A stretch of DNA of 64,000 nt, from positions 1,798,001 through 1,862,000 of the forward strand of contig NZ_CP061285.1 in assembly GCF_018687075.1 (NCBI RefSeq), written 5' to 3'. The notes under the pieces are model-generated. The model was not told where the DNA came from. It saw only the letters and a list, made by a program, of their open reading frames with translations, and ran no database searches. Of this stretch, positions 23,238-50,067 are shown piece by piece; the first letter of the stretch is position 1; the number at the start of each line of letters is the position of its first letter. Source of the stretch: Polynucleobacter sp. MWH-UH35A. Lineage in GTDB: Bacteria > Pseudomonadota > Gammaproteobacteria > Burkholderiales > Burkholderiaceae. A program made the position numbers and the translations under genes.

Positions 23238-23272
23238 AAATGGATTGTAGATTCGCGGATTAGAATGTGCTT

Positions 23273-24760
23273 ATGAGTAAATTCAGACTAAAACCTTTAT
23301 TACAGGGTTTATTCCTGGCAGCTTTAGCTGGTGGAGTGTTTTCATCAGCCCATGCGCAACCGCAGCCAAACGGCTTACAAACCGGTGAAGCCGTATTTGA
23401 AGTACTAGCTTCCGAAATCGCCCTTCAGCGGGGTGAGGCCGGCTTGGCTTACAACACCTATTTAGAAATGGCGCGCCAATACAAAGATCCCAGATTGGCT
23501 CAAAGGGCGATGGAAATTGCTATTGCGGGCGGTTCTCCAGATCTAGCGATGCAAGCCGCAAAGACCTGGGATGAGCTCTCTCCAGCGGCAGATTCCAAGC
23601 CCAAAGAAGTCTTGGTGACCCTACTCATTCTAAGCAACCGTTGGACAGATGCTGTCAAGCCTGCCATCGCTTTATTACGTCAACAGACCCCGGCAAAACA
23701 AGAAAACACACTGTTGCAATTGCAAGCATTGCTTGCGAAAGCAAAAGATGAGTCTGAGGCCTTACGCGCTTTTTATGAAATCGCATCTACAGTCAAGATT
23801 CCACCGAAAGATCCTGGCCTGCTTTATACCTATGCCATGTCCGCTGAAAAGGTTGGTCGTATTGATGTTATGGAAAAAACACTGCGTGATATTTTGCGCA
23901 AGAATCCCAATGATGTGAATTCGCTTAATGCGCTGGGCTACTCCTTAGCTGATCGAAATGTCAATTTGCCTGAGGCCTATGCTCTTATTAGCAAAGCGCA
24001 CCAACTCTCACCAAAAGATAGTTTTATTTTAGATAGCTTGGGGTGGGTGAACTTTCGTCTTGGTAAAAATGCACTTGCTTTAGAACAACTACAACAAGCA
24101 TTTGCTATGAAACCAGAAGCGGATATTGCAGCCCACACTGGTGAAGTGTTATGGGTCATGAATCGCCATGCTGAAGCAGAAGAGATGTGGCGCCAAGGAC
24201 AAAAATTGGATGCCAACAATCCAACACTAAAGGAAACTCTTAAACGTTTTAAACCCGACTGGACTAGAGATGATCAAGCAGCCAAAGGCTCATGGGATGG
24301 GCGCTTTGCCGTCAAAGTCATTGGTCTAACGGAATCGCAGAACCAAGGCGGCTCTGGTGGCTTTACCTTAACCCAAGAGGCATTAAAAGATGTGCTGGAA
24401 ATTCGTAATCCCATGGGTGGGTCGATTGCAAAAATTACGATTACTCCTGGTGAAGCTACGCTCGAAAGTGATGGCAAGGTCGTTACCGAAGTGGATGCAG
24501 ATACCCTAGTACAAAACACCTTGGGCCTACCACTGCCTGCTCGAGGTTTATCGAATTGGTTAAGAGGTGAAGTGCGCCCCGGCAGTGAGGCAAGTATTGA
24601 TAGAAACTCCAAAGGGCAGGTAAGTAAAATTAGTCAAGATGGCTGGGACTTGGTATATACATGGAGTAATACCAATCGACTTGAAAAACTCATCATGACA
24701 CGCAGCTCAAACATCGGCTCGATTGATATTCGTCTAGTGTTTGATCGTCCAAATGATTAA
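23273..24760 (+). CDS. TPR-repeat protein fused to a LolB-like domain
   Basis: The ATG at 23273 (MSKFRLKPLLQ) is preferred to an in-frame GTG two codons earlier, giving 495 residues. A signal peptide ends near SSAHA|QPQPNG with no cysteine at or near the cut, so it is not a typical lipoprotein. Residues ~45-325 are TPR-like helical repeats (NSLNALGYSLADRNVN; LDSLGWVNFRLGK). From about residue 340 the sequence matches LolB: SWDGRFAVKV, LEIRNPMGGSIAKI, TPGEATLESDGK, LGLPLPARGLSNWLRGEV, and DGWDLVYTW. LolB is the outer-membrane receptor that inserts lipoproteins. In related genera the TPR gene and lolB are separate and stand before ispE, so position supports a fusion. Function of the unlipidated form is inferred. 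Confidence 0.85.
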   Translation: MSKFRLKPLLQGLFLAALAGGVFSSAHAQPQPNGLQTGEAVFEVLASEIALQRGEAGLAYNTYLEMARQYKDPRLAQRAMEIAIAGGSPDLAMQAAKTWDELSPAADSKPKEVLVTLLILSNRWTDAVKPAIALLRQQTPAKQENTLLQLQALLAKAKDESEALRAFYEIASTVKIPPKDPGLLYTYAMSAEKVGRIDVMEKTLRDILRKNPNDVNSLNALGYSLADRNVNLPEAYALISKAHQLSPKDSFILDSLGWVNFRLGKNALALEQLQQAFAMKPEADIAAHTGEVLWVMNRHAEAEEMWRQGQKLDANNPTLKETLKRFKPDWTRDDQAAKGSWDGRFAVKVIGLTESQNQGGSGGFTLTQEALKDVLEIRNPMGGSIAKITITPGEATLESDGKVVTEVDADTLVQNTLGLPLPARGLSNWLRGEVRPGSEASIDRNSKGQVSKISQDGWDLVYTWSNTNRLEKLIMTRSSNIGSIDIRLVFDRPND

Positions 24761-24774
24761 GCGAAACAGCAATT

Positions 24775-25650
24775 GTGAGCATTGATTATTTAACGCTTCG
24801 CTCTCCGGCTAAGCTCAATCTTTTTTTGCATATCGTTGGACGTAGAGCGGATGGCTATCACCTACTGCAATCTGTTTTTCAATTGATTGATTGGTGTGAC
24901 ACACTCCGCTTAAAAAGAATTCCTGAAAATGAAGTGCACCGAGTAAATCCCATTCCTGGAGTTGCGCCCGAACAAGATTTGGTGGTCCGTGCCGCACACT
25001 TACTTAAAGAATTTTGCAAGATTACTGCTGGTGTTGAAATCGATCTTCAAAAAGAAATCCCGATGGGTGCAGGTATGGGAGGCGGCTCTTCAGATGCAGC
25101 ATCCACTTTAATTGGACTGAATGCCCTCTGGAATCTCAACCTACCCAAACAAACGCTCTGCGAGCTAGGTTTACAACTAGGAGCCGATGTCCCATTTTTC
25201 ATTTTTGGCCAAAATGCCTTTGTTGAGGGAATCGGCGAAAAAATTCAAGAAATTGCCCTCGAAACCCCTGATTTTTTAGTCATATTCCCAGGCCAGAGCA
25301 TTGCCACCGCTAGTATTTTTCAAGACCCGGAATTGACCCGAGATCATGCTCAGATTACAATTGATGGCTTTCTTGCATCGCCATCGCTATATCAATCAAA
25401 TGATTGTCAGGCCGTTGCGATGCGGATTTGCCCAGAAGTGAAGCAAGCTTTGGATTGGATTACCCAGGCAGTATCGGGCTCACAGCCCCGAATGTCTGGT
25501 TCTGGAAGTAGCGTTTTTGCTGTCTTAGACCCTAAGACTGACACCGCAAAACTAGAAAATCTTCTTCAAAATCTTCCTAAAGGGTGGGTAGGTCGGGTTG
25601 TTCGGGGGCTAAATAAAAATCCCGCTTACAATTTGATTTCTTCAGATTGA
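24775..25650 (+). CDS. ispE: 4-diphosphocytidyl-2-C-methyl-D-erythritol kinase
   Basis: IspE phosphorylates CDP-ME in the MEP route to isoprenoid precursors. The 291-residue protein starts at a GTG (24775; MSIDYLTLRSPAKLNLFLHI), since no ATG suits the conserved PAKLNLFL start. The GHMP kinase ATP motif PMGAGMGGGSSDAAS is near residue 98, and the C-terminal motif MSGSGSSVFAV near 240. It is 14 bases after the TPR-LolB gene and 5 bases before tRNA-Gln, so the tRNA is probably cotranscribed or reads from a promoter inside ispE. Confidence 0.95.
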   Translation: MSIDYLTLRSPAKLNLFLHIVGRRADGYHLLQSVFQLIDWCDTLRLKRIPENEVHRVNPIPGVAPEQDLVVRAAHLLKEFCKITAGVEIDLQKEIPMGAGMGGGSSDAASTLIGLNALWNLNLPKQTLCELGLQLGADVPFFIFGQNAFVEGIGEKIQEIALETPDFLVIFPGQSIATASIFQDPELTRDHAQITIDGFLASPSLYQSNDCQAVAMRICPEVKQALDWITQAVSGSQPRMSGSGSSVFAVLDPKTDTAKLENLLQNLPKGWVGRVVRGLNKNPAYNLISSD

Positions 25651-48633: not shown

Positions 48634-50067
48634 ATGCGCCAATTTCTAAAGAATTTCGCCCTGATAACCGTTGGTCTTATCGCCGGTGTGGCAGCGACAA
48701 TCCAGCTCTCCGCTACGGCCCAGCAAGGAGCCCAGCTACCGCTAGATGAGTTGCGTACGCTTTCTAACGTCTTCGCACAAATCAAGCGTGAATATGTTGA
48801 GCCCATTGAAGATAAGCAATTGTTAACGGACGCAGTCAAGGGAATGGTGAGTAGTCTTGACCCGCACTCCACTTTCTTGGATAAAAAAGATTTTTCAGAA
48901 ATGCAAGAGCAAACCTCTGGAAAGTTTGCTGGCCTTGGCATTGAGATTACCTCAGAAGATGGTGTTGTCAAAGTTCTCAATCCAATTGAAGATAGTCCTG
49001 CAGCACGTGCTGGCTTGCAAGCGGGGGATTTAATTACTCGTCTGGACGATAAACCTGTACGCGGTATGTCTCTCGATAAAGCAGTTCGCACAATGCGAGG
49101 CACTCCTGGAACAAAAATTACTTTGACGGTATTTCGTAAAAGTGAGGAACGCAGCTTTCCTGTCACAATCACTCGCGCAGAAATTAAAGTTCAGTCAGTT
49201 AAAACCAAAATTCTTGACAACGATATTGCTTGGGTTCGCATTACCAGCTTTCAAGAGCGTACCGTCCCTGACCTCGCTAAAAAATTAACAGATATTGCCA
49301 ACCAGGATCCAAAGCTCAAGGGCATCATTTTGGATCTGCGTAACAATGGTGGCGGCCTACTTCAAGGTGCCGTAGGTGTAGCTGCTGCCTTCTTGCCTGC
49401 GGATGCGATTATTGTCTCCACCAAGGGACAATCCCCAGACTCCACACAAGTATTTAATGCCACGCCAGCCATGTACCGCCTTAATGAGTCTGGCGATCCT
49501 TTGGCTGGTGTTCCAGCCATGTTTAAAAAGTTGCCAATGGTAGTTTTGGTGAACGCCTACTCCGCCTCTGCCTCAGAGATTGTGGCCGGCGCACTTCAGG
49601 ACTACAAACGTGCAACCATTATTGGAAAAACTACTTTTGGTAAAGGCTCTGTGCAAACTGTACGTCCACTTACCAATGATTCCGCACTGAAAATCACTAC
49701 TGCTTATTACTACACTCCAAGCGGCAAGTCGATTCAAGCTTTTGGTGTGAAACCAGATATTCCGGTAGATCAAAATAAAGATGGTGATCCAGATGATGTA
49801 TTGATCACTCGCGAGATTGACAGCGAGAAGCATCTGCGCAATAAACAATCAGCTGAAGACAAGTTAATCAAAGATCGTGAGCAGCGTCGTCTTGAGGAGC
49901 TACAACGCATTGAAGAAAAAAATGCCAAAAAGACTCCCGAAGAAAAAGAGAAAGAAAAAAATAAGAAGCCTACTGAACTCGGTAGCGCAGATGACTTTAT
50001 GCTCTCCCAGGCTGTGGCGTTCATCAATGGCCAGCCTGTAAAGCGCTCATCATCTAAGCTGGAATAA
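48634..50067 (+). CDS. Carboxy-terminal processing protease, S41 family
   Basis: The 477-residue periplasmic protease has an N-terminal signal or anchor (FALITVGLIAGVAATIQL), a PDZ domain at about residues 90-175 (SGKFAGLGIEIT; DSPAARAGLQAGD), and the S41 catalytic region. The serine lies in the segment SASASE at residues 310-315, and the general-base lysine is in TTFGKGSVQTV near residue 339. The C-terminus is a charged, lysine/glutamate-rich stretch (EEKNAKKTPEEKEKEKNKK) that is likely disordered. Substrates are probably envelope proteins. Confidence 0.94.
   Translation: MRQFLKNFALITVGLIAGVAATIQLSATAQQGAQLPLDELRTLSNVFAQIKREYVEPIEDKQLLTDAVKGMVSSLDPHSTFLDKKDFSEMQEQTSGKFAGLGIEITSEDGVVKVLNPIEDSPAARAGLQAGDLITRLDDKPVRGMSLDKAVRTMRGTPGTKITLTVFRKSEERSFPVTITRAEIKVQSVKTKILDNDIAWVRITSFQERTVPDLAKKLTDIANQDPKLKGIILDLRNNGGGLLQGAVGVAAAFLPADAIIVSTKGQSPDSTQVFNATPAMYRLNESGDPLAGVPAMFKKLPMVVLVNAYSASASEIVAGALQDYKRATIIGKTTFGKGSVQTVRPLTNDSALKITTAYYYTPSGKSIQAFGVKPDIPVDQNKDGDPDDVLITREIDSEKHLRNKQSAEDKLIKDREQRRLEELQRIEEKNAKKTPEEKEKEKNKKPTELGSADDFMLSQAVAFINGQPVKRSSSKLE

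Follow-up and report, generated by a model that had tools for sequence, protein, structure and literature searches.

The window, by which we mean the whole 64,000-nucleotide stretch of Polynucleobacter DNA that was analysed, carries a single open reading frame in which an LbcA-like TPR region is joined to a C-terminal LolB domain, together with the following features of interest:

23273..24760, + strand: fused lbcA-like/lolB gene encoding 495 aa, from the reading frame, Pfam and the match to LbcA
23273..23356, + strand: signal peptide, residues 1-28, with a probable type I site AHA/Q (read by eye) and no cysteine
23390..23662, + strand: N-terminal region, residues 40-130, resembling the N-terminal part of Pseudomonas aeruginosa LbcA
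23813..24253, + strand: C-terminal TPRs, residues 181-327, from Pfam TPR models, corresponding to the last TPRs of LbcA
24254..24292, + strand: linker of 13 residues (328-340), in the place of the LolB lipoprotein signal and tether
24293..24748, + strand: LolB domain, residues 341-492, from PF03550 and profile matches to solved LolB structures
24413..24415, + strand: Met381 of the NPMG loop, at the position of Escherichia coli Leu68 (equivalence by motif)
24775..25650, + strand: the downstream neighbour, which we take to be ispE from its position and the ispE match in relatives
48634..50067, + strand: ctpA homologue, a possible protease partner of the LbcA-like half, from an S41 match and similarity to CtpA

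The fused gene runs from an ATG at 23273 to a stop codon that ends at 24760. A GTG two codons upstream (23267) stays in frame, the region 23267-23275 reading GTG-CTT-ATG, and since starts of the V-L-M type or the like are frequent across the genus loci, the true start codon of the fusion is ambiguous. Outside the signal peptide no membrane-spanning stretch was seen, the best 19-residue mean hydrophobicity beyond residue 40 being 0.96.

A first-pass annotation, made from the letters of the window, had proposed a LolB domain at the C-terminus of a periplasmic TPR protein, and this is borne out by the domain models: PF03550 aligns to residues 342-491 over profile positions 6-149 of 151 with 84.3 bits (cut-off 23.7), and Pfam TPR models score above their cut-offs between residues 181 and 304. 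The NCBIfam model TIGR00548 (lolB) gives 41.5 bits, under its 59.6-bit cut-off, so that the protein is classed here as a PF03550 LolB-domain protein and not as a TIGR00548 equivalog. A profile of the fusions also finds the solved LolB structures 8orn_B and 1iwm_A. The same annotation had drawn attention to the replacement of the conserved leucine of the NPLG loop by methionine; Met381 is indeed there, but it marks no lost feature, the position being filled by V in 72, M in 35, I in 14 and L in five of 126 genus loci. In 213 database fusions, of which four odd cases were assigned by eye, the counts are M 105, V 69, L 24, I 14 and F 1. Polar replacements of Leu68 are reported to impair E. coli LolB (PMC11885536; PMC10368991), which, with the V/M/I/L usage in the genus, makes Met381 a conservative change. 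Nor is the loop residue absolute, the L74E variant of Flavobacterium johnsoniae LolB1 being described as defective in part only (PMC11885536) and Xanthomonas LolB as having a different hook sequence (PMC11885536/PMC10368991).

Judged by its sequence, the TPR half is a shortened relative of LbcA, the adaptor of the protease CtpA. Its best solved relative is PA4667, the LbcA of P. aeruginosa (2.3e-43), and a profile built from 19 fusions matches LbcA at 1.6e-57 in two stretches, namely profile positions 32-129 against the N-terminal part (i-Evalue 3.8e-05) and positions 148-328 against the last TPRs; with the single sequence, phmmer places residues 27-129 on 8sxe_C 9-110 with a weak i-Evalue of 0.0006. 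In P. aeruginosa the N-terminal adaptor of LbcA is reported to bind CtpA (PMC11021448), and its C-terminal TPR spiral is thought to hold substrates (PMC11021448; PMC8764530); by position, the N-terminal stretch of the fusion probably corresponds to this adaptor. An alignment with nine stand-alone relatives shows that both ends are retained in the fusion and that a large TPR stretch, which most of them possess, is missing from its middle, a loss by which CtpA binding or substrate delivery may have been forfeited and which, set against the 11 TPRs of LbcA, leads us to call this half LbcA-like and not LbcA. One of the nine relatives (L109) is itself short. The sole S41 protease match in the genome that carries the window (E up to 1e-5) is the gene at 48634-50067, in the same window and 24 kb away, whose product matches P. 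aeruginosa CtpA with 366 bits. Homology and gene presence thus suggest a link between the TPR half and CtpA, and we put the chance that the two bind at about even. In summary comparison with LbcA, the fusion shares the N- and C-terminal stretches, the adjacency to lolB and the presence of a CtpA homologue, but it has no lipid anchor (Cys-17 in P. aeruginosa LbcA), has no large middle TPR stretch and carries a LolB domain at its C-terminus.

The absence of a lipobox cysteine, noted at first for the region after the signal peptide, extends to the entire protein: there are no cysteines in its 495 residues, and lipidation at cysteine is therefore impossible. Among the 125 genus loci with a complete 5' end, 86 encode a protein free of cysteine overall and 88 one free of it in the first 60 residues; 37 have some cysteine within those 60 residues, and a strict lipobox pattern occurs in the first 45 residues of two. 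The database fusions are alike, 206 of the 213 being at least 480 residues long, and of these 170 lack cysteine and three fit the strict lipobox; a looser pattern adds seven among the 213. The few fusions with a lipobox-like cysteine may, to go by the motif, be lipidated, which argues against any blanket claim that LolB is unlipidated throughout the genus. In five cases (L276, L299, P0163, P0165 and P0174) a strict lipobox-like cysteine precedes an apparent type I site, possibly reflecting regained lipidation or dual processing.

The missing anchor had been presented as a problem for which the TPR part might be a substitute, and this we do not uphold. E. coli LolB is reported to work without its anchor (cited in PMC11885536), and unlipidated F. 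johnsoniae LolB1 to complement fully (PMC11885536); with the anchor dispensable in both organisms a special tether is not required, and the lack of cysteine is by itself no puzzle. What is unusual is that here the anchor is missing naturally, nearly genus-wide and in the sole copy of LolB. The de-lipidated proteins made in the laboratory (E. coli mLolB and F. johnsoniae LolB1 C17G) are soluble and reported to be functional, and the fusion is likewise free of lipid, whereas its lipid-free state is natural and is combined with another domain. E. coli LolB itself shares with the fusion a near-complete PF03550 domain and a hydrophobic loop residue; it is, however, a lipoprotein, whereas the fusion has no lipobox cysteine and carries LolB as the C-terminal domain of another protein. 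The fusion is not a canonical LolB lipoprotein; it is a LolB-domain protein that lacks one usual LolB feature, lipidation, and most likely acts like LolB.

The genome in question is assembled as one contig of 1.96 Mb (99.99% complete), and in it the fusion is the single PF03550 match and the only locus found, below cut-off, by TIGR00548, no second LolB being found with either model; the fusion is the cell's only recognisable LolB. The same is seen more widely, with exactly one LolB match at E 0.01 or better in each of 42 genus genomes, this one included; some genus genomes show two or three matches when E values up to 1 are allowed. The genome also encodes one LolA, one lolC/E-type gene and two YfiO-type PF13525 matches, the better of which, presumably BamD, has the lipobox LGGC. 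With LolA, a lolC/E-type gene and a lipobox-bearing YfiO/BamD homologue present, outer-membrane lipoproteins still need delivery. Elsewhere in the family, seven of 299 genomes have no LolB match at E 0.01 (G188, G191, G197, G210, G212, G217 and G246), four of them being 200-500 kb in size and the others 1.1-1.7 Mb.

The fusion is characteristic of the genus. A LolB match is present in 177 of 186 genus genomes, and in all 144 with a completeness of 90% or more and a contamination of 5% or less. One locus each was taken from 127 of the 177 positive genomes, and in 126 of them both domains lie in a single open reading frame, the exception (L112) stopping at a contig end. An assembly or frameshift artefact is ruled out by these 126 uninterrupted frames, the remaining locus being cut by its contig. 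Beyond the genus, profile scans were made of 399 genomes of the order and 370 of the class, in both of which fusions whose LolB part has diverged strongly might escape: in the order, the nine genus genomes drawn match nearly the whole fusion profile and, among the matches listed for the other 390, none reaches beyond profile position 348; in the class, the window's own genome is the only one among the matches listed to be matched in full, and no other of these passes position 348. When 5.8 billion proteins were searched with a LolB-domain query from another genus, over lengths of 0.55-1.75 times the 456-residue query, the result was seven proteins out of 796 candidates, among which one TPR-LolB fusion, of Polynucleobacter type (P0090), and no other was found. 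Three database proteins (P0218, P0219 and P0220) combine a partial LolB match with unrelated-looking sequence; to the eye they resemble products of broken or misjoined contigs more than fusions.

The arrangement in relatives indicates where the fusion came from. As had been anticipated, the TPR gene and lolB are separate in related genera and precede ispE in that order, this being so in 17 of the 20 loci compared, which represent 19 other genera of the family; the exceptions are L094, without a TPR match, L092, without an ispE match, and L110, without any match. A lipobox-type cysteine (loose pattern) lies 15-30 residues before the start of the conserved domain in all of the 14 loci in which the lolB start region was read, and seven of these 14 have a plausible lolB start with a 4-nt overlap with the TPR stop. 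Stand-alone TPR relatives show a strict lipobox in just one (L096) of the 16 with a readable start region, there ahead of a type I-like site; mostly without a lipobox, they make the TPR half no obvious donor of an anchor. In P. aeruginosa lbcA is described as sharing its operon with lolB and ipk, both of them essential (PMC6050968), so that the fusion unites two neighbours of an old operon and its LolB part keeps the place before ispE/ipk that lolB has in P. aeruginosa and the relatives examined. The genus forms one clade both in the IspE tree (support 0.98, 46 tips) and in the TPR tree (support 1.00, 47 tips), which fits a single fusion event.

A different arrangement is seen in family f17 of the same order (L137-L145), where an unfused TPR gene, compact at about 330-350 residues and internally shortened in a similar way, precedes a small open reading frame missed by PF03550, after which comes ispE. 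PF03550 is above cut-off in none of the 11 f17 genomes, and a LolB-like frame is in place in most f17 loci; of nine such small frames four have a strict lipobox, four a hydrophobic stretch plus cysteine by eye, and one is ambiguous, the product probably being a strongly diverged LolB. Whether the TPR part of the fusion might descend from this compact f17 form was asked of the trees: no split joins f17 with the genus in the IspE tree, and one does so in the TPR tree with support 0.44.

Both domains of the fusion are under purifying selection. Compared with the close relative L129, dN/dS is 0.024 for the TPR part, 0.025 for the LolB part and 0.232 for the signal peptide. Four pairs of greater distance give 0.059 and 0.091 for the LolB part where it is computable, synonymous sites being saturated elsewhere in both domains. 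In the TPR half 54 of 147 columns are conserved at 90% or above.

Taken as a whole, namely with its export, its insertase function, its role as CtpA adaptor and a single fusion origin, the explanation towards which we lean, by a little more than an even chance, is that of a soluble, functioning insertase fused to an adaptor of the LbcA type. The protein would be exported through its type I signal and remain unlipidated, and its C-terminal domain would receive lipoproteins from LolA and use the hydrophobic loop to insert them into the outer membrane, just as LolB does in other organisms when its lipid has been removed by experiment. As a shortened adaptor of the LbcA type, the N-terminal half would still bind CtpA, whose gene lies in the same window, and activate it. 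The fusion would have arisen once, in the Polynucleobacter ancestor, when adjacent TPR and lolB genes were joined, a step in which the lipoprotein signal and tether of lolB would have been dropped. Among the parts of this explanation, a soluble or loosely membrane-bound state is very likely, and an insertase activity is likely, if held a shade less firmly.

TPRs bind proteins, and a conserved TPR half could in principle stand in for the lipid, holding LolB at the outer membrane or cell wall through a lipidated or integral partner, much as P. aeruginosa LbcA tethers CtpA at the outer membrane (PMC8764530). LbcA, however, is reported to be held there by its own lipid (PMC8764530), which the TPR half of the fusion does not have, 15 of the 16 stand-alone relatives are without a strict lipobox, and the LolB anchor is in any case reported dispensable (PMC11885536), so that we regard such a replacement of the anchor as unlikely. 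Cleavage of the linker after export, leaving separate soluble LbcA-like and LolB proteins for which the fusion is only a shared precursor, would be in keeping with a linker that has the lowest mean conservation after the signal peptide (two of 13 columns at 90% or above) and that in 61 fusions is 13 residues long in 26 and 16 in 35; yet P328, W330 and W341, in or beside it, are well conserved, and we give this little credence.

It is similarly doubtful that the LolB domain has ceased to be an insertase and merely serves the CtpA adaptor, LolA covering both jobs. A bifunctional LolA is known in Caulobacter (PMC11784454), and a LolA is present in the genome studied here, but the purifying selection, the hydrophobic loop residue in the 126 loci, the near-whole LolB domain and the match in every one of the good genus genomes speak against such a loss. 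The Caulobacter system likewise departs from the E. coli Lol layout, with the difference that one LolA-like protein does both jobs there, whereas Polynucleobacter keeps LolA plus a LolB domain. That a diverged, lipidated LolB is encoded elsewhere, the fusion being an accessory copy, is conceivable insofar as Pfam misses the LolB-like frame of f17; the fusion nonetheless occupies the ancestral place before ispE, two LolB models converge on the one locus in its genome and each of the 42 genus genomes has its single match, which makes this the least probable of the alternatives, and very improbable indeed.

A broader reading may be ventured, which we hold tentatively and at less than an even chance: that one soluble periplasmic protein, with an anchor in neither half, inserts lipoproteins through its LolB domain and through its LbcA-like half switches on CtpA, which degrades cell-wall hydrolases, so that outer-membrane supply and wall cutting would be physically linked genus-wide. 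The fusion also hints that the insertion of lipoproteins may be physically connected, in a way that can be tested, with the control of cell-wall hydrolases by LbcA and CtpA, two functions whose genes are already connected by the lbcA and lolB operon of P. aeruginosa (PMC6050968). A review has called it "somewhat paradoxical" that lipoprotein trafficking needs LolB, itself a lipoprotein (PMC11784454). Laboratory work reports that the anchor can be removed; here a whole genus, in nearly all members examined, appears to live without it, and offers a natural case for testing how much the LolB anchor matters. In the titles of open-licence literature on LolB no description of a TPR-LolB fusion was found; the names that the database fusions bear (LolB, or LolB/PilF) already reflect both halves.
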